Source of the DNA: Tessaracoccus coleopterorum
GTDB lineage: Bacteria > Actinomycetota > Actinomycetes > Propionibacteriales > Propionibacteriaceae
Direction of reading: 5' to 3'
Length of the DNA stretch: 64,000 bases
Assembly (NCBI RefSeq): GCF_011174705.1
Contig: NZ_JAANIJ010000001.1
Span: forward strand, 2,914,001-2,978,000
Shown piece by piece: positions 32,873-47,388 of this stretch. The first letter of the stretch is position 1, and each line of letters begins with the position of its first letter. A model generated the notes under the pieces. That model was not told the origin of the DNA, did no database searches, and was given only the letters and a program-made list of their open reading frames with translations. The translations under genes were made by a program, and so were the position numbers.

Positions 32873-33145
32873 TCCGGGGAGGGGCCGCCGTCAAAAAAAA
32901 CGGCCAGTGGCCGCTTCTGATCGGTCCTGCTGGAAATAGTGGCCACTGTCCCGGCCTTCCGGGGAGGGGCCGCCGTCAAAAATCGGCCAGTGGCCGCTTC
33001 TGATCGGTCCTGCTGGAAATAGTGGCCACTGTCCCGGCCTTCCGGAGGAGGGAGCCGCCGCCAAAAATCGGCCAGTGGCCGCTTCTGATCGGTCCTGCTG
33101 GAAATAGTGGCCACTGTCCCGGCGTTCCGGGAGGGGCCGATTTTT
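32873..33145. repeat. Three tandem 83-85 bp repeats plus a truncated fourth, each with a hairpin
   Basis: Units begin TCCGGGGAGGGGCCGCCGTC at 32873, 32958 and 33041, with a 20-base partial unit at 33126. Each holds an A-run (8, 5, 5), CGGCCAGTGGCCG, then CAGTGGCC and GGCCACTG arms about 28 bases apart (32905-32912 and 32941-32948 in unit 1; 11 bp with one wobble when extended). Read on the minus strand each hairpin runs into a T-run, like an intrinsic terminator. The copies are almost identical. The array fills the 430-base gap between the DUF1707 gene and the second glycosylase; no other gene of size is seen there. Confidence 0.85.
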
Positions 33146-38489: not shown

Positions 38490-39494
38490 TCACGATCCTC
38501 TGTGGGGAAGCCGAACCAGGGCGATCGATCTGCGCTGCCAGGAGTAGGTGACCCACACCTCCGGGCCCACCACGATCATCGCGGGGTAGGAGTACTCGCC
38601 CGCGCCGTCGGTGACCACGCCGGTGGCCGACGCGGCGGCGGGGCTGCCGTCCGCCTCGCCGGGCGCGCCCTCCTCCAGCACTGTCACCGGTCGCCATGTG
38701 AGCCCGTCATCTTCTGACGACGAGACGATCAGGCGTGATCTCGCACCCCAGTCGCCTGAGGCGTCGTTGTGCGCACACCAGATGCGTCCGTCCGGGAGCA
38801 CGACCGCCGCGATGCCGGAGTTGTTGTTGGGCAGCCCGGTGGGCTGCAGCGCCGGCCAGTCGGCGGGGTCGTCGGTCGCCGACCGGTAGACGCTGCCCTC
38901 CGTCGACCGGGCGAGGGCGACGAGCCTGGTGCGGCGCCCCGGCACGAGCGTGGGTTGGATGCAGCCTGCACCTCGGAGGCCCCGATGCTCGAGGGGGATG
39001 GGGTGACGCACCCACGAGCCGCCTCCGTCGTGAGTCGCGTCGATGAAGCAGTCCCACCTGGCCGGGTCCCAGCTCTCCACCGACCCCGGCGCCAGCCAGA
39101 GGCCGCCCAACGGGAGAGGTGCCTGCCGGGTGGGGCCGCGCCCGCCGGTCGTGTCGCCGGCGATGAGGGGAGCCGGCGACTCCCAGGTGCGGCCGCCGTC
39201 GTGCGAGCGGGTGACCCAGGTCTCCCAGCTATCGATCCGGTGGCCACGCTTGTAGAACAGCCAGACGGACCCGTCCGGCCCGTCCGCGAGCACCGGGTTC
39301 CAGTGCGGCACCCGGTCGTCCGGGGCCAGCGGTGTGGGGCGACCGGCGGCACGCATCACCGTGATGCCGGTCTCGGGGTGCCCCTCGTGTGGCCCGGCGA
39401 ACCACGCGAAGAGGCATCCACCGTCCGCCAATGCCAGAAGGGTGCTCGCGTGCACCTGGACGCCGTCGACGGGCGGCGTCAGTAGGTGGGTCAC
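38490..39494 (-). CDS. Sialidase-like BNR-repeat protein (predicted neuraminidase, cytoplasmic)
   Basis: Intact, about 334 residues. Features of the predicted-neuraminidase group (COG4692) are present: AWFAGPHEGHPETGI near residue 29, Asp-box sequences SHDGGRTWESP and SEDDGLTWRPV, GPTRQAPLPLGGLWLAPGSVE, NNNSGIAAVVLPDGR and EYSYPAMI. It forms a beta-propeller. There is no signal peptide, so it would act on an imported substrate. Start is GTG at 39494, overlapping the tctA stop as GTGA. It is the last gene of the GntR-controlled operon. Whether it truly cleaves sialic acid is not shown; many relatives are uncharacterised. Confidence 0.78.
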   Translation of the reverse strand: MTHLLTPPVDGVQVHASTLLALADGGCLFAWFAGPHEGHPETGITVMRAAGRPTPLAPDDRVPHWNPVLADGPDGSVWLFYKRGHRIDSWETWVTRSHDGGRTWESPAPLIAGDTTGGRGPTRQAPLPLGGLWLAPGSVESWDPARWDCFIDATHDGGGSWVRHPIPLEHRGLRGAGCIQPTLVPGRRTRLVALARSTEGSVYRSATDDPADWPALQPTGLPNNNSGIAAVVLPDGRIWCAHNDASGDWGARSRLIVSSSEDDGLTWRPVTVLEEGAPGEADGSPAAASATGVVTDGAGEYSYPAMIVVGPEVWVTYSWQRRSIALVRLPHRGS

Positions 39495-40969
39495 GCCGCC
39501 TCCTTCCGCGCGGCGATCGCCTTGGAGATGACCGGCCACAGCAGCGAGCCGGCTGCGAGGATGAGCAGCACCAGCGAGATGGGGCGGGTGAGCAGTTCGT
39601 AGGGCTGGCCGATCAGCAGGGCCCGGCGCAGGTTGGCCTCCGCGAGGGGCCGAGGAGGAAGCCGAGCACGATCGGCCCGGCAGGGATGCCGACCCGCCGC
39701 AGGACGAGGCCGATCACGCCGAAGACCAGCATCTGCACGACGGTCAGCACGTTGTTCGTGGTGGCGTAGGTGCCGACGATGCAGAACACCACGATGATGC
39801 CCAGATCAGCTGTGGCTTCAGATCCAACAGCTTCGTCATCCCACGCGTGCGGACGAGGCTCACGATCGTCGACACGAGGGTCGCCAGCAGCATGATGGCC
39901 ACGATGGTGACCACGATGTCGGGTCGCCGCTCGAACAGTGACGGCCCGGGCTGGATGCCCCAGATGATCATCGAGCCGATCATGATCGCCATCACGGAGT
40001 CGCCCGGGATACCGAGGGAGAGGGTGGTCGTCAGCGCGCCGCCCAGCGTCGAGGAGGACGCTGTATCCGCGCCGACGACACCCTCGATGGAGCCCTTGCC
40101 GAACTCCTCCGGATGCTTCGAGATCGCCTTGGCACGGTTCCACCCGACGAGGCCGGCGATGTCGCCGCCCGCCGCGGGGATGACGCCGATCAGGGCGCCG
40201 AGCACGCCCGACTGCACCATCGGCTTGGCGACCCGCTTCATCTCCGCCCGATTGGGCCACCAACGCCCGAGCGACGAGATGGGGCGCACCTTGCTGGCGT
40301 GGTGGGTGAGTATCTGGTCGAGCACCTCGGTGATGCCGAACAGGCCGATGATCAGCGCGATGAAGTTCAGGCCACCCTTGAGTTCGTTGGTGCCGAAGTC
40401 GAACCGGGCGTCGCCGGTGATGGGTCGAGACCCACCATGCCGAGCGCGATGCCGAGCAGACCGGCGAAGATGCCCTTGGCCAGCGACTGCGACGCGATCG
40501 AGATGATGACGGTGAGGCCGAACACGACGAGCGCGAACATCTCGAACGGGCCGAACCGCAACGCGAAGTCGGCGATCGGTCGGGCAAGGAACACCAGTAC
40601 GAGCATCGACATCAGGATGCCGACGGTGGTGGCGATGGCCGAGACAGACAGCGCGAGGCCCGCCTGACCCTTGCGTGCCATCGGGTAGCCGTCGAGGGTG
40701 GTCGCCACCGCTGCGGGAGTGCCGGGGGTGTTGACGAGGATGGAGGGGATCCGGTCGCCGTACTGGGCGGAAACGTAGATCGCGAGCAGCATGGCGAGGC
40801 CCTGGGCCGGCTCAAGCGTCAGGGTGAAGCTGGTGGCCAGCGCCACAGCCATCGAGATCGTGATGCCGGGGAACACCCCGACCAGCAGGCCGAGGCCGAG
40901 CCCGATGACGAGGCAGAGGAGGGCCGTCGGCTCGAAGAGCGCGGACAGGCCGTCGACGAGCGCGTTCAC
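39491..40969 (-). CDS. Tripartite tricarboxylate transporter, large permease TctA
   Basis: About 493 residues with roughly eleven transmembrane helices. Signatures are GLLVGVFPGITISMAVALA, YGDRIPSILVNTPGTPAAVATTLDGYPMARKG (the conserved substrate-path loop) and its inverted counterpart VIPAAGGDIAGLVGWNRAK and STLGGALTTTLSLGIPGDSV. It is the membrane channel working with TctB and the binding protein TctC. Frameshifts near 40427, 39803 and 39646. GTG start overlaps the tctB stop; stop overlaps the sialidase-like start. Confidence 0.9.
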
Positions 40970-41475
40970 AGGGGAACCTTCAGGAGGAGTTGGAACACCA
41001 GGTAGAGGGTCGCCGCGACGATGGCAGGGAACAGCAGGAGCGTCGTCCAGCGGCGTAGGCCGTAGGCCCAGTTGGTGACGATGAGGAATGCGGGGCCGAG
41101 CACCAGGAAGTTGACGCCGACCTGCCACAGGGCCAAGACCGCTATGAGGGCGGCCACCGTGACGCCGACCTGGATCCAGCCTGAACGGCGGGACGGGTCG
41201 ACGGTCCGGTCGATGGAGACCTTGAGCACCGCATTGACGAGCATCCACACACCGCTGAGGATGATGCCGCCGGAGATGACGGTCGGCCACCAACGGGATC
41301 GATGCCGCCCGTCTCGTTGCGCAATGGGATGCTGCGGGCCGTCACGAGCAGAAAGACGCCGAAGACGATGACCACCGCCGCCGTCACCCTCTCCAGGGTG
41401 GGGAGACGGCCGCGGTGGTCGCTTCGTCCGCGGGGTCGGCGGCGCGTCGGCCGCCGACCCTGCAGCGTCGTCCAT
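40966..41475 (-). CDS. Tripartite tricarboxylate transporter, small permease TctB
   Basis: About 171 residues with four transmembrane segments (RVTAAVVIVFGVFLLVTA, TVISGGIILSGVWMLVNAVL, ALIAVLALWQVGVNFLVLGPAF, LLLFPAIVAATLYLVF). The hydrophilic N-terminus is MDDAAGSAADAPPTPRTK. Size, helix count and place between tctC and tctA identify it. Frameshifts near 41400 and 41293. Start is ATG at 41475, sharing its A with the tctC TGA; GTG at 41478 is the alternative. Confidence 0.82.
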   Translation of the reverse strand: MDDAAGSAADAPPTPRTKRPPRPSPHPGEGDGGGGHRLRRLSARDGPQHPIAQRDGRHRSRWWPTVISGGIILSGVWMLVNAVLKVSIDRTVDPSRRSGWIQVGVTVAALIAVLALWQVGVNFLVLGPAFLIVTNWAYGLRRWTTLLLFPAIVAATLYLVFQLLLKVPL

Positions 41476-42475
41476 CACTGGCCGATGAGGTCCGCGAACC
41501 GCTTCGCCTCGGACTCGGCGAACTCCGTGAACTCCTGCGAGCTGCGGTAGACGACCAGGTTGCCGCTGGAGGTGATGACGTCACGGTACGACTGCTGCTC
41601 GGTGGCAGCCTTGATGGACTCCTCGAGCTTCGCCTTCACGTCCGCAGGCAGGCCCTTCGGTGCGTAGATACCGCCCCAGCCACCGATCTCGAGATCGAGG
41701 CCCTGCTCCTTGGCGGTGGGGACGTCAGGAAGCTCCGGGTGGCGCTCGGAGTGGAAGATGGCAAGCACCTTGAGCTTGCCGTCGGCCAGGTTCTGCTTCA
41801 CCTCGTTGACACCGGAGGCGGCCGCGTCCACCTGGTTGCCGAGGACCGCCGCCACGGCGGGGCTCCGCCGTCGAAGGGCACCGACTTGATCTGTGCGCCC
41901 GACTCCTTGGCGATGCTGATGCCTGCCAGTTCCCAGATCGAGCCGGCACCGGAGTTGGAGACGGTCATCTCCTTGGTCTTGGCGGCCTCGACGAACTCAG
42001 TGAGCGTGTTGTAGGGGCTGGAGGCGGGCACCGACAGGACTCCGGGGCCGAGCATGATCTGGCCGAGCATGTCGAAGTCGGATGGTGCGATGTCGTAGTT
42101 CATGCTGCCGAGCATCGCGATCTCGACGGGACCGAACCCGATGGTGTAGCCGTCGGCAGGCTGGTCCTTCACGTACAGCATTGCCGTCGAGCCGGAGGCA
42201 CCCGGACGGTTCTCGACGATGATCGACTTCCCGATGATCGGCTCCATCGCGCCGGCGAGGGCGCGGGAGGAGAGGTCTGATCCGCCGCCTGCCGCGGCCT
42301 GCACGATGAGGGTGATGTCCTTTGTCGGGAAGTCGGTTACGGGCGCCGGGGCGCCCGACGAGGCGGGTGAGGTCGGCGGGGCGCTGGTGGGTTCTGTTCC
42401 GCGGCTTGTGCAGGCCGAGGTGCCTACGGCGATGGCGGCGGCGGCGGTGCCGAAGATGAGGGTGCGTCGTTTCAT
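41475..42475 (-). CDS. Tripartite tricarboxylate transporter substrate-binding lipoprotein TctC
   Basis: About 333 residues. A lipoprotein signal peptide MKRRTLIFGTAAAAIAVG ends at the lipobox TSAC, followed by a Ser/Pro linker. The Bug-type periplasmic-binding fold shows FPTKDITLIVQAAAGGGSDLSSRALA, VENRPGASGSTAMLYV, and the Asp-containing loop DVPTAKEQGLDLEIGGWGGIYAPKGLP. Members bind carboxylates, usually through two ordered waters and a lid loop. The ligand is unknown; the operon suggests a sugar acid or sialic-acid-like compound. One frameshift near 41860. ATG overlaps the dapA stop (ATGA). Confidence 0.9.
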
Positions 42476-43347
42476 GAGGTGGCTCCTAGCTGTGCTGCGA
42501 GTTCGACTACTTCGTCGATCCGGGTGCGGACATCTGCTTCTGGTTGATCGATGACCATGCGGCATGCACCGCCGGCCCTGCCCTGGATGTCCAGGGCGTG
42601 CTTCAGGTTTGCGATGCTCGGGCCGAGTACGGGAACTACCCTGCGGATCACGTCCTGGGCCCGTGCGGCGGCATCGTCGTCGCCGCGTCCCATGGCGTCG
42701 CGCAGGACGGCCCATGGGGTGGGGCATGCTCCGCTCACTCCGGAGACCGACCCCGTGCCGCCCGCCGCCATGACCGCCGGAACGTCGGCGTCGTTGCCCG
42801 ACCACAGCTTGAACCCGGCCGGGGCGTTGGCGAGGTACCCGGCCACCCGTGTGGATGCGCTCGCCGATACCTTCACCCCGGAGATCCCCGAGGCGAGGAC
42901 CTCGCCCAACTGCTCCGGCAGCACGTCTGTGACGGCGACGTCGGGGTAGATGTAGCCGTAGAGCTCACCCTCGCATGCCTCCTTGATGGCGGCCCAGTGG
43001 CGGATCACGCCCTGGGTGCTCGCGGGAAGGTAGTACGGGGTCAGTGCGGCGAACCGCTGCGCCCCGAGGCGCCGCGACCCGGTGGCCAGCGCGACCGAGG
43101 CCGCCGTGCTGGGGGAGCCGAGATGGACGACGGTGCGGGCCGGCCCGAACGTCTCCAGGCAGGCCGACACAAGTTCCGCGTGCTCCGCCTGGCTGAGCGT
43201 GAGGAACTCACCGGTGGTGCCCGCGACGAAGACGCCGTCGACGAGCGGCTCGAGTTGCTGAAGGTTGTCACGGAAGCCCTTGTGGTCGATGGCCCCGTCT
43301 GGTGTGAATGGCGTGATGAGCGCCGTGAGGATCTCCGGTTGGTTCAT
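42472..43347 (-). CDS. DapA-family lyase (dihydrodipicolinate synthase / N-acetylneuraminate lyase superfamily)
   Basis: Intact, 291 residues. The substrate carboxylate motif is AGTTGEFLTLSQAEH (about residues 42-56), the catalytic Tyr is in LYGYIYPD near 130, and the Schiff-base lysine in SGVKVSAS near 158. The fold is a TIM barrel that makes a Schiff base with pyruvate. It heads an operon with a carboxylate transporter and a sialidase-like protein and is under GntR control, so it is more likely a catabolic keto-acid aldolase or lyase than the lysine-pathway DapA. ATG at 43347 is the only good start. Confidence 0.82.
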   Translation of the reverse strand: MNQPEILTALITPFTPDGAIDHKGFRDNLQQLEPLVDGVFVAGTTGEFLTLSQAEHAELVSACLETFGPARTVVHLGSPSTAASVALATGSRRLGAQRFAALTPYYLPASTQGVIRHWAAIKEACEGELYGYIYPDVAVTDVLPEQLGEVLASGISGVKVSASASTRVAGYLANAPAGFKLWSGNDADVPAVMAAGGTGSVSGVSGACPTPWAVLRDAMGRGDDDAAARAQDVIRRVVPVLGPSIANLKHALDIQGRAGGACRMVIDQPEADVRTRIDEVVELAAQLGATS

Positions 43348-43374
43348 GCGTCCCACTTCGTCGTGTCGTTGACC

Positions 43375-43387
43375 GTTAACGGTTAAC
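43375..43387. promoter_or_regulatory. Probable GntR operator between divergent dapA-type and gntR genes
   Basis: Two GTTAAC hexamers are separated by a single G (GTTAACGGTTAAC), forming a 13-bp near-palindrome in the 97-base divergent intergenic region. AT-rich twofold sequences of this kind are typical FCD-type GntR targets. It lies 28 bases before the lyase ATG. Confidence 0.6.
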
Positions 43388-43444
43388 GAAACGGTAGCGG
43401 TGGGGCGAGAGTGTGCAAGAGTTTCCCGAAAGAAAGGGGCGTCC

Positions 43445-44208
43445 ATGTCGGTGCCTGCCCTGAAGGCCGTCGCGCTCGGTGAGCAGCTTGCGGCGCTGCT
43501 GCGTTCGAAGATCGTGCGTGGCCAGCTGGAACCCGGCGCACACCTCGTCGAGGACGCCCTCGCGGCCGAGTACGGGGTGAGTCGCGGCCCGGTGCGCGAC
43601 GCGCTCCGCGCGCTCCTTGCGGAGGGGCTGCTGGAGAGCCGTAAGCGGGGTACTTCGCGAAGGCGTTCACGCAGCACGACGTGGATGAGCTGTATGCGAT
43701 CCGCGGCGCCGCCGAGCGGTTGGCGGGGGAGTTGGCCATCGCGAGCGCAACTGTCGACTGGGGCCGTGCGGAGGCGCATCTGGACGCGATGGGGCGGTGC
43801 GCCGAGGTGGGCGACTACGACGGGTTCGCCGAGGTGGACCTCGAGTTCCACACGGAGTTCTTCGTGAACTCGGGTAACTCGCGGTTGCTCGGACTCTGGC
43901 GGCAGTACCAGCCGACCTTCGCGACGCTGCTGGGCATCACGAATGCCCAGGATGCCGACCTGCACCCGTCCTACCGGGACCATCTCCAGTTGATCGACCG
44001 TGCGAGGGCCGGCGATCGTGAGGGTCTCGCGGCGGCCCTCGCCGACCACCTCGACGGCTCGCACCGGCGGTTGAGCCGGACTGTGGCGGCGAGGTCGGCC
44101 CGGAGGGCGTCCGCTCAGTTGAGTTCCACCGTTGCCTGGGTGGTCGGGGCATCGGGTGCCGTCGGGGGCGTGCCGCCCACCTGCTCTGCCTTGGAACCGG
44201 CAAGGTAG
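43445..44208 (+). CDS. GntR-family regulator, FCD subfamily
   Basis: About 235-254 residues. The winged helix is at residues 8-70: GEQLAALLRSKIVRGQLEPGAHLVEDALAAEYGVSRGPVRDALRALLAEGLLE. The FCD ligand domain follows with ELYAIRGAAERLAGELA, DLEFHTEFF and YRDHLQLIDRARAGDREGLAAALADHL (metal-binding Asp and His residues). One base is lost near 43652 (KRGYFAKAF). It is divergent from the operon it should control, with an operator between. The end is uncertain: the open frame runs to 44208, 94 bases into the convergent membrane-protein gene, and a lost base may hide an earlier stop. Confidence 0.85.
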
Positions 44209-44450
44209 CCGGCGATGGTTCCGAACAGGGTGAAGACGCCGGTCAGCACCTCCTTGTTCGATGTCAGGAGCACCGTCGTCACCGCGAGGATCGCGAGTGT
44301 GATCAGCCCGTACACCCGGGCAAAGGTCGGCGACAGCGTCCGCTTGACCGATCCGCCCGATCCGTTCGTGCGCGGCCAGCCGTAGGCGATCGTGAACAGC
44401 AGTGCCAGCACCGTTCCAAGCGCGGAGACGACAAGGATGTTGTTCCACAT
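44115..44450 (-). CDS. Small membrane protein with two or three helices
   Basis: Intact, 111 residues. Helices at about residues 3-23 (ILVVSALGTVLALLFTIAYG), 47-64 (YGLITLAILAVTTVLLT) and 70-86 (VLTGVFTLFGTIAGYLAGS), then a Pro/Thr-rich hydrophilic tail (GGTPPTAPDAPTTQATVELN). I do not recognise it; the shape resembles small holin-like or LapA-like proteins. It stands alone before the tRNA pair. The 286 bases upstream hold no convincing gene. Confidence 0.6.
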   Translation of the reverse strand: MWNNILVVSALGTVLALLFTIAYGWPRTNGSGGSVKRTLSPTFARVYGLITLAILAVTTVLLTSNKEVLTGVFTLFGTIAGYLAGSKAEQVGGTPPTAPDAPTTQATVELN

Positions 44451-44989: not shown

Positions 44990-45889
44990 TCAGTCGAGCC
45001 CGAGGAAATCCAGGAGCCGCGGAAGCTGCCGCTGCGACTGGCGCCTGCCCGCCTCGAAGGTGGCCCGGAGCCTCGTCAGATTGCGCTCGGAGTTCGCGAT
45101 CGGCATCTCGTCGGGGAAGATCAGGAATGCCCGGCCCTCCCGCTCCGCCTGCAGGAGTTCCTCGAGGCTCCGGTTGTAGTTGGCCGGCCTGTCGACGAGC
45201 GCACGGGCGATCTCCGGGTATCTCCGGAAGACGTGGCGGTACGCCTTGGGAAGCTTCGGCGGCTGCTTGCGGTAGCCGCGCTCCCTGGTCATCACCACGA
45301 GGAACCGGTCGTAGCCGTCGGCCTTCGCCGCGTCGTGCGCGAAGCCGCCGGTCGGGCCGAGCGCGCCGTCGCAGTAGACGACGTCGTCGATTGTGGTCAG
45401 CGGCATCAGTGCGGGCATCGTCGAGGAGGCGCGGACCCGGCGCATCAGGTCGAGCGGGGTATCGATGTCGTCGCGCGACCAGTAGACCATCTCCCCGTCA
45501 TCGCACCGGAATGCGCCCACCCTCACCTCGGCTGGATTCGCGCTGAAGGTCGCGTAGTCGAACGGCAGCACCTGGTGCGGCTCCGAGGTCTGCTCGTAGA
45601 TCCACTCCGAGTTGAAGACGCCCTTGCCCTGCAGCCACGTGCGCCAGTCGCCGAACTCCGGCTCGGCGGCGAGATCGATGAACGACCGCTCGGCGCGCAG
45701 TGGATCGCGGGAGACGTAGTTGGCCACGCAGGTCGTGCCCGCGGAGATGCCACCCACCCAGTCGGCGTGGATGCCGGCCTCGAGCAGCGTCACGAGCACG
45801 CCGGACGAGAAGGAACCGCGCATGCCACCGCCCTCGAAGATCAGTGCCGTGTCCGTGACGTTGCTGGTGATGGGTTCTCGCACGCACAC
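44990..45889 (-). CDS. Patatin-like phospholipase / serine hydrolase
   Basis: Intact, 299 residues. The oxyanion loop is [15 protein letters not shown] (about residues 17-31), the nucleophile elbow is GISAGT (GxSxG, Ser near residue 49), and the dyad Asp is in VYCDGALG (DGA, near 177). The layout matches bacterial YjjU/RssA-type patatins, which are cytoplasmic lipid acyl hydrolases; no signal peptide is seen. Start ATG at 45889 gives [10 protein letters not shown]; a GTG a few codons in is possible. It is divergent from tig and 53 bases from the tRNA-Gly gene. Confidence 0.9.
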
Positions 45890-46009
45890 ATGCTAATCAC
45901 CCTCGGGGTGCCGATCCGGGGAGGAGCCGGGCGCCGTGCCCCAATTGGTGGCTGGGGCCCCGCCCGATACACTTATCCGCGAACCTCATTCACTTTCAGG
46001 AGTCCATTC

Positions 46010-47388
46010 GTGCCTAGCACCGTTGAGAAGCTGAGCCCGACGCGGGTCAAGCTCACCGTCGAGATCCCGTTCGCCGACCTTCAGCCCTACCTCGATAAGG
46101 CCTACAAGGGGATTGCCGAACAGGTCAACATCCCCGGTTTCCGTAAGGGCAAGGTGCCCTCGACCGTCATCGACCAGCGGTTCGGCCGCGGCGTTGTGCT
46201 GCAGGAGGCCATCAACGAGGCCATCCCACCGCCTACAACGAGGCGATCGACGAGGCCAAGGTGTGGCCGATGGCCCAGCCTGAGATCGACGTGACCAAGC
46301 TCGAGGACAAGGAACTCGTCGAGTTCACCGCCGAGGTCGACGTGCGTCCCGAGGTCAAGCTGCCCGACTTCGACAAGGTTGCCGTGACCGTCGATGCGCC
46401 TGAGTCGGCCGACGACTTCACCGCCGAGCGTCTCGAGATGCTCCGTGAGCGCTTCGCCACCACCAACGAGGTCGACCGCGCCGCCCAGGAGGGTGACGTC
46501 CTCACCATCGACCTGGTCGCCACCCAGGACGGGCAGGAGCTCGCCGACGCGACCGCCGAAGGCATCACCTACAAGGTGGGCCAGGAGAAGAACATGCTCG
46601 AGGGGCTCGACGCGGCCGTCACCGGCCTCAAGGCCGGCGAGTCCAAGTCGTTCACCTCGACGCTGGTCGGCGGCCAGTTCCGTGGCCAGGACGCCGACAT
46701 CGCGGTCACGGTCAAGACCGTCTCGGAGCAGGAACTGCCCGAGCTGGATGACGAGTTCGCCCAGATGATCTCCGAGTTCGACACCGTCGAGGAGATGAAG
46801 GCCGACCTCCAGCAGGCCGCCGAGGCCCAGGTCAAGGCCGAGCAGTATGCCAACGCCCGCGACAAGGTCCTCGAGGCCGTCGTCGAGCAGACCGACTTCG
46901 AGCTGCCCGAGGCAGTGCTCGCCGGCGACAAGGAGGCGCGCCGCGCCGAGATCCAGCGCCAGCTCGCGCAGGGCGGCCTGACCGTCGAGGCCTACCTTGA
47001 GCAGGCCGACGACGAGGACGCCGAGACCGCAGACGAGTTCTGGGCCTCGATCGACGAGCGCTCCGAGCAGGCGTTGCGCGCCCAGGTGATCCTCGACGTC
47101 TTCGCCGACGAGAGCAAGATCGACGTCTCGCAGCAGGAGCTGACCGAGATGATCTTCCGCCGCGCCCAGCAGAACGGTTCCTCGCCCCAGGACGAGATCA
47201 ACCACATGATGGAGCACAACCACATGCCCGAGTGGATGCAGGAGATCCGCCGCGGCAAGGCCCTGGCCCAGATCTGCGCCGCGGCCACCGTCACCGACGC
47301 CGAGGGCAACACCCTCGACATGTCGCTGCCGACCGCTGATGACGACGCGGCAGAGGCCGACGACGCCGCCGAGGCCGAGGAGAACTGA
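46010..47388 (+). CDS. tig: Trigger factor chaperone
   Basis: About 460 residues. The ribosome-binding signature GFRKGKVP is at about residue 44. A central FKBP-like PPIase domain ([18 protein letters not shown]) and a helical C-terminal chaperone domain follow, with an acidic tail ([18 protein letters not shown]). It binds nascent chains at the ribosome exit. GTG at 46010 follows CAGGAGTCC; a TACACT -10 sits at 45967. One base is lost near 46226. A terminator follows at 47416, so it is probably its own transcript. Confidence 0.95.

Follow-up and report, generated by a model that had tools for sequence, protein, structure and literature searches.

A TctCBA-DapA-propeller operon of Tessaracoccus coleopterorum as a candidate route for the degradation of a 2-keto-3-deoxy ulosonic acid

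Which acid is taken up and degraded by the products of an operon that joins a tripartite tricarboxylate (TTT) transporter to a DapA-family pyruvate lyase and a cytoplasmic propeller protein with a sialidase fold (PROP)? This question is raised by five minus-strand genes and a divergent GntR gene found in a 64,000-nucleotide stretch of Tessaracoccus coleopterorum DNA (contig NZ_JAANIJ010000001.1, positions 2,914,001 to 2,978,000; hereafter the window). The initial annotation of the locus had considered a sialic-acid role and, as an alternative, another keto-sugar acid, with 3-deoxy-D-manno-octulosonate (Kdo) among those listed. The latter is the better reading, and Kdo appears to be the best candidate. 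The substrate is probably some 2-keto-3-deoxy acid, and we propose, with moderate confidence, that the operon serves the import and degradation of an ulosonic acid of the 2-keto-3-deoxy type, with Kdo or a Kdo-containing sugar as the likeliest choice. Kdo is an unusual acidic sugar of the cell walls of plants and the outer membranes of bacteria.

Genes beside the lyase and the propeller in relatives

The proposal starts from the genes that accompany the lyase and the propeller in other bacteria. The locus of Paenibacillus validus runs PROP-DapA-FucI-ribulokinase, with FucI at 1088 bits (cut-off 775) and ribulokinase at 763 bits (cut-off 428). Across Paenibacillus and Oceanobacillus, the canonical FucI scores 1052-1088 bits (three proteins scored) and the ribulokinase 750 and 763 bits (two scored); besides the P. 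validus proteins, FucI of the loci L092 and L110 and the ribulokinase of L097 exceed their cut-offs. In the family of Mangrovibacter, a propeller match was found in 22 of 246 genomes, and 11 of the 22 contexts were inspected. The order FGGY-(FucI-like)-DapA-PROP is found in seven of these 11, adjoined by TctC and TctA in six and by a major facilitator superfamily (MFS) carrier in one, the MFS form being that of Mangrovibacter itself. One of the FGGY kinases in these contexts reaches 551 bits with the model "FGGY family pentulose kinase", the cut-off of which is 408.7. In Pfam, the FucI-like protein scores 33.2 bits in Nonomuraea (cut-off 29.3) and 28.2 bits, just below, in Mangrovibacter. Residues 187-546 of its structural model (predicted local distance difference test, pLDDT, 79.5) match L-fucose/D-arabinose isomerases with Z of 33-35 and L-arabinose isomerases with Z of 27-30, including one L-fucose isomerase with Z 35.1 and a root-mean-square deviation (rmsd) of 2.4 over 332 residues, and the first 170 residues give general flavodoxin-like matches only, with Z near 10. 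The top Foldseek match of the model is the D-arabinose isomerase 3a9r (E 1e-19, TM about 0.5, with a large overall rmsd). In an actinobacterium (G443, locus L180), the genes for TctC, TctA, DapA and PROP are lined up with a FucI-like gene that is only distantly related (25% identity), and a LacI gene is divergent from this row. A Lachnospiraceae locus (L072) runs PROP-DapA-TctC-TctB (by position)-TctA-ribokinase-like-KpsF/GutQ-like-FucU-YhcH; its short SIS protein matches the KpsF/GutQ model best at 117 bits (cut-off 203.7) and KdsD at 106 bits, both under the full-length cut-offs, and is predicted to be arabinose-5-phosphate-isomerase-like. To judge by these protein families, all three downstream gene sets fit D-arabinose as their starting point, which suggests that the lyase releases pyruvate and D-arabinose and hence acts on Kdo, as a split of Kdo between C3 and C4 would leave D-arabinose.

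Partner genes were counted in the best 80 of 386 relatives from a scan of species genomes, where a locus counts as "DapA-positive" if it has any match to the DapA family, distant ones included, and the Fisher tests ignore shared ancestry. FucI or a FucI-like isomerase was found in 18 of the 37 loci with a DapA-family match and in two of the 43 without one (Fisher p 5e-6). FGGY kinase, Tct and PfkB genes were found in 10, nine and five of the 37 DapA-positive loci, respectively, and in none of the 43 others, while YhcH/NanQ-like proteins were found in eight and two, respectively. On a propeller tree of 95 rows (L173 left out), the isomerase label is carried by 27 rows, one of which is the Lachnospiraceae route without FucI. 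Well-supported branches alone require at least five changes of this label, so the isomerase linkage is not one simple inherited block. PROP of the window falls in a 16-row clade (support 100/98) that holds 10 isomerase-linked rows. In Lachnoclostridium phytofermentans (L095, 9007-12147), a GH106-type alpha-L-rhamnosidase gene (73.9 bits) lies between the propeller and DapA-family genes; presumably its product would fit the Rha-Kdo disaccharide of rhamnogalacturonan II (RG-II), which is a weak lead.

The operon and its predicted proteins

The locus comprises the following features, and the Pfam scores of all six genes exceed the gathering cut-offs:

42472..43347, minus strand: DapA-family pyruvate lyase (aldolase), intact; PF00701 at 134.3 bits (cut-off 22.1); Tyr132 and Lys159 align with conserved family positions
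41475..42475, minus strand: TctC, substrate-binding lipoprotein, one frame change; PF03401 in two pieces of 72 and 67 bits
40966..41475, minus strand: TctB, small membrane subunit, at least one frame change; PF07331 at 50 bits
39491..40969, minus strand: TctA, large membrane subunit, three frame changes; PF01970 in two pieces of 194 and 159.5 bits
38490..39494, minus strand: PROP, cytoplasmic BNR_2 propeller with sialidase fold, intact; PF13088 at 186 bits (cut-off 31.4); AlphaFold2 model with pLDDT 93.1; Z 34.3 to the human cytosolic sialidase Neu2
43445..44112, plus strand: GntR/FCD regulator, at least one frame change, end inferred; PF00392 at 61.6 bits and PF07729 at 73.5 bits on two pieces; frames set against the Tessaracoccus rhinocerotis orthologue
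43368..43387, strand-less: operator-like near-palindrome of 20 bp, GTTGACCGTTAACGGTTAAC, the core of which is kept in the three closest relatives

A direct check of start and stop codons confirmed that the five minus-strand genes overlap by 4, 1, 4 and 4 bases, and the GntR gene starts at 43445, divergent from DapA across a 97-base gap. The initial annotation had described overlaps of one to four bases, a divergent FCD-GntR gene and a near-palindrome between the divergent genes, all of which held, the regulator assignment through its Pfam matches. Overlooked in it were the frame changes in GntR, TctC, TctB and TctA, which, when compared with open-frame orthologues, number one, one, at least one and three, respectively, with none in DapA or PROP. 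The GntR gene probably ends near 44112 and not at 44208, because similarity stops at 44085 and a minus-strand open reading frame (ORF) occupies 44115-44450. This 111-residue ORF (44118-44450) is membrane-protein-like, overlaps the end of the GntR frame and has no Pfam match at E 0.001. Elsewhere in the window, 32873-33139 is a tandem array with an 85-bp unit, 3.2 copies and 94% matches.

A search for the same gene order elsewhere, which the initial annotation had suggested, found it in Tessaracoccus rhinocerotis (L040), an uncultured Arachnia (L041) and Arachnia propionica OH2822 (L042). The gene order is conserved beyond chance, and this is a real but rare operon. The idea that the combination is unique is not supported, as Tct, DapA and propeller genes recur together in Actinomycetota, Enterobacteriaceae and Clostridia. 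A propeller match at E<=0.001 was found in 18 of 96 genomes, T. coleopterorum included. Only three other genomes of the genus have a strong match; two of them (G025 and G023) carry the whole operon, and in the third (G019) the propeller stands alone, without lyase or carrier beside it. In the class sample, two of 394 genomes, again with T. coleopterorum included, have a match at E<=1e-40 (five candidates scored per genome), and the propeller is rare in the class. Directly after the propeller gene of A. propionica (L042, 8981-11589; the same genes as L023, 10292-12900) lie genes for a two-domain ATP-binding cassette (ABC) ATPase and a BPD_transp_2 permease, which are possibly a second carrier.

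The TctC, TctB and TctA families occur in one operon, above their cut-offs and in pieces owing to the frame changes, so the carrier is of the TTT type; a lipoprotein-type signal, MKRRTLIFGTAAAAIAVGTSAC, was read by eye at the N-terminus of TctC. With Lys159 and Tyr132, which we take to be the Schiff-base Lys and the catalytic Tyr, the lyase is a member of the dihydrodipicolinate synthase (DHDPS)/DapA superfamily. It is under every NCBIfam equivalog cut-off among the models matched. A role in lysine synthesis, which would have told against the initial annotation, is disfavored and was rejected on a score of 114.3 bits for the lysine-pathway model TIGR00674 (equivalog cut-off 206.15); the score for the NanA model TIGR00683 is 70.1 bits (cut-off 382). 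Lyases of two subtypes are found in such modules, a TTGE-type in Actinomycetota, including the window, and a QSSE-type in Bacillota, Enterobacteriaceae and others. TTGE-type loci with a FucI-like gene are L043, L045-L047, L049, L051, L052 and L061, three of which (L047, L051 and L061) also have an FGGY kinase gene. At the P-x-R position, the Arg of which presumably binds the carboxylate of the aldehyde in lysine-pathway DapA, Val is found in the window, its three closest relatives, L050 and L051, and Arg in other actinobacterial members. This position is not diagnostic, because Val in the window is matched by Arg in several TTGE-type loci linked to FucI-like genes. From the partner genes of its relatives, the lyase of the window is a candidate for Kdo aldolase (EC 4.1.2.23) activity. 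The excerpts of PMC13220900 describe NanA and human NPL, lyases of the DapA superfamily, as able to cleave Kdo, and those of PMC4016182 describe lyases of this superfamily as able to form Kdo from D-arabinose and pyruvate.

PROP shares the fold of glycoside hydrolase family 33 (GH33) sialidases over its whole length, with the match to Neu2 (1vcu) being the best (rmsd 2.4, 298 residues aligned), but its identity to the sialidase structures in the rows listed is only 12-18%. The GH33 active site consists of an Arg triad, a Tyr/Glu nucleophile pair and an Asp acid. Invariant in all 41 PROP sequences are His15, Glu37, Glu140, Gln180, Arg196, Asn223-Gly227, Asn243, Arg252, Tyr303, Tyr317 and Arg321. 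Printed alignments place Tyr303 on the sialidase Tyr that we take to be the nucleophile, and the counterpart of the Asp acid may be Glu37 or position 41. To judge by sialidase motifs and the 16-residue spacing between Gln180 and Arg196, Gln180 presumably takes the place of the sialidase Glu, and His15 that of the first sialidase Arg. With these changes, PROP is probably not a classical sialidase but an enzyme that acts on a related acid, and Gln180 weakens a classical glycosidase role. Unlike GH33 sialidases, PROP has no signal peptide, as read by eye at its N-terminus; on this point the initial annotation stands, while its statement that PROP acts after uptake is a proposal only. A profile match of PROP (E 3e-4) is to PDB 5mqr, which we take to be an RG-II enzyme with a hydrolase domain for 3-deoxy-D-lyxo-2-heptulosarate (Dha) and treat as a weak lead.

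The regulator has both a GntR winged helix and an FCD domain and thus belongs to the FCD-GntR class. Within the GntR-DapA gap, GTTAACGGTTAAC at 43375-43387 lies inside the near-palindrome; the counterpart in T. rhinocerotis, GTCAACCGTTAACGGTTGAC, is a perfect palindrome, and the core is retained in both Arachnia loci. Among nine other actinobacterial gaps inspected, a similar site is found in three (L047, L050 and L051) and none in six. Across the whole T. coleopterorum genome, the degenerate site occurs with 0-1 mismatches only at this locus, with one further match at three mismatches, and the backward control of the site gave 0 matches. Local control by the divergent GntR protein through the palindrome, as first annotated, fits this conservation.

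We propose the following pathway. TctC would bind the acid and TctAB would carry it into the cell, where PROP would act at its anomeric carbon, either by cleaving a Kdo glycoside with a modified sialidase site or by turning the ring-closed acid or its lactone into the open-chain keto acid, neither of which we prefer. The lyase, through its Schiff-base Lys, would then split the open form into pyruvate and D-arabinose. D-Arabinose would be converted to D-ribulose and then to D-ribulose 5-phosphate by an isomerase and a kinase, whose genes stand beside the lyase gene in many relatives and which in T. coleopterorum would have to come from genes elsewhere in the genome. The FCD-GntR protein would act at the palindrome as a repressor of transcription both ways, until it is bound by one of the acids of the pathway.

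Alternative substrates and the state of the operon

Several observations weigh against Kdo. No isomerase or kinase gene is found in the operons of the window and its three closest relatives, clusters of such genes are absent from 17 of the 37 DapA-positive loci, and four of the 11 Mangrovibacter-family contexts have no lyase or isomerase gene beside the propeller gene. The T. coleopterorum genome has a FucI gene and several FGGY kinase genes elsewhere; the cluster with FucI and FGGY genes (L127) is surrounded by genes whose products look like ABC carriers for sugars, and it may serve L-fucose. Because FucI is widespread in the genus (33 of 39 genomes), that of this genome was dropped as evidence. 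A search of the genome for the FucI-like protein, run without a positive control, gave no match. The lyases of Paenibacillus, Clostridia and Enterobacteriaceae are of the QSSE/YECPxPYKR subtype, whereas that of the window is of the TTGE subtype, so its product need not match theirs. NanM was unnecessary in the Kdo assays described in the excerpts of PMC13220900, which weakens a pure Kdo mutarotase role of PROP. Most TTT ligands characterized to 2018 carry two carboxylates, according to the excerpts of PMC5812351, in whose 2018 TTT table no ulosonic acid is found; Kdo has one carboxylate.

It is rather unlikely that the lyase acts on another 2-keto-3-deoxy acid, such as 2-keto-3-deoxygluconate (KDG), 2-keto-3-deoxyxylonate (KDX), some deoxy-heptulosonate or an ulosonic acid not yet known, and that the isomerases and kinases of the relatives serve a different aldose. 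FucI-type isomerases act on several aldoses, and the equivalog scores of the lyase are compatible with such a substrate. However, KDG and KDX give glyceraldehyde or glycolaldehyde, for which no FucI and ribulokinase are required, and three different downstream gene sets fit D-arabinose.

That the same logic applies to Dha of RG-II is distinctly unlikely for the window. The lyase would then yield pyruvate and a four-carbon aldehyde acid, the reduction of which would give D-threonate (Kdo and Dha are named here as in the excerpts of PMC12168206). The preponderance of two carboxylates among TTT ligands favors Dha, and so does a sister propeller type found in 10 of 398 Pseudomonadota genomes, the contexts of which include PdxA2 and alcohol dehydrogenase genes in nine of the 10, a DapA-family gene in eight and a gene like that of D-threonate kinase (DtnK) in six, with none in L173; several of these partners are only about 27-34% identical to the E. 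coli proteins. A full set is carried by E. coli APEC O1 between nagE and glnS (L167, 679000-691500; 3227-12198), where genes for an SLC13 carrier, YhcH, the propeller, a frameshifted TerC-family protein, a DapA-family protein and an alcohol dehydrogenase are divergent from those for DtnK, PdxA2 and DeoR. This insert shares the COG4692 propeller and the DapA-family lyase with the window operon and differs in its alcohol dehydrogenase, DtnK, PdxA2, YhcH, SLC13 carrier and propeller clade. The E. coli propeller keeps His15, Glu37, Arg196, the NNNS stretch, Arg252 and Tyr303 but lacks Gln180 and Glu140. The APEC O1-type region is "GR 6", which is treated as uncharacterized in the excerpts of PMC12928451. 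When the propeller gene of Salmonella diarizonae was used to search E. coli genomes at the DNA level, no match was obtained. By their gene content, the sister-clade loci are a candidate Dha pathway. The propeller of the window, however, is separated from the sister type with 100/100 support, Tct genes accompany FucI-like isomerases in Actinomycetota and Enterobacteriaceae, and the window operon lacks DtnK, PdxA2 and alcohol dehydrogenase genes.

It is very unlikely that the frameshifts are real and that the operon has decayed and no longer works in this strain, even though four genes together change frame six times or more. The frameshifts are likely assembly errors, which is the simplest reading, because argS (L128, 7108-8750; about 2372107-2373749 of the contig) and the trigger factor gene (window 45233-47388) are each split over two reading frames too, the assembly (3.59 Mb, two contigs) has a completeness of 60.93%, and the frames are open in relatives. 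No frame change affects DapA or PROP. All six genes are in open frames in T. rhinocerotis and A. propionica, as they are in the uncultured Arachnia except for TctB, which is a tblastn match only. In an assembly so prone to errors, other "broken" genes of the window are not to be taken as pseudogenes unchecked.

Catabolism of N-acetylneuraminic acid (Neu5Ac; sialic acid), as first considered, is highly improbable and was rejected: although the propeller has a sialidase fold and YhcH/NanQ-like proteins accompany some DapA-positive relatives, the lyase falls far short of the NanA equivalog cut-off, NanE was not found in the genome by a search that was positive in eight of 14 control genomes, in agreement with the initial annotation, and the recurrent partner genes that were recognized in relatives encode enzymes of the pentose type (the 80 loci were not screened for NanE and NanK).

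Relation to known pathways and significance

The proposed Kdo route resembles the nan pathway (NanA, NanE, NanK and NanM/NanQ) in its carrier, its lyase of the DapA superfamily, its GntR/FCD control and the NanQ-like protein of some relatives, but it has a TTT carrier, no NanE was found, and the isomerases and kinases of its relatives are of the pentose type. It is probably a pathway for an ulosonic acid, built as a variation on the sialic-acid scheme in which the lower half and the carrier are different. Degradation of D-arabinose via FucI and ribulokinase is fed by free D-arabinose. The same enzymes form the proposed lower half in Paenibacillus, where they are equivalog matches, but here a lyase is proposed to feed them. 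Kdo aldolase, which we take to be EC 4.1.2.23, catalyzes the reaction proposed for the lyase of the window, and to our knowledge no gene for it is known. EC 4.1.2.23 appears in the table of an orphan-enzyme survey, as excerpted from PMC1940265. Among the matches listed in the open-license literature, mostly titles and the starts of abstracts, no paper with an identified gene cluster for the breakdown of Kdo or Dha and no gene-level claim for Kdo aldolase were found.

More broadly, we suggest tentatively, and as a view that falls somewhat short of probable, that COG4692-type cytoplasmic propellers with the sialidase fold, instead of being sialidases, form the core common to two parallel bacterial pathways for the two ulosonic acids of RG-II. 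One would be a Kdo clade with a lyase, D-arabinose isomerase and ribulokinase, and the other the sister Dha clade with a lyase, alcohol dehydrogenase, D-threonate kinase and PdxA2. The stereochemistry agrees with this: D-arabinose from D-manno Kdo, and D-threonate from D-lyxo Dha after cleavage and reduction, are what the neighboring genes would be expected to act on. With its sialidase site re-tooled, the propeller would carry out a reaction at C2 that is new, and the product of the missing Kdo aldolase gene would be among the lyases. If the proposed pathway is true, it would provide gene candidates for the orphan Kdo aldolase, an ulosonic acid as a ligand of TTT carriers and a function for proteins now annotated as "sialidase family". 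It would also give the D-threonate pathway a source in the physiology of the cell, and this would extend to an uncharacterized region of extraintestinal E. coli.

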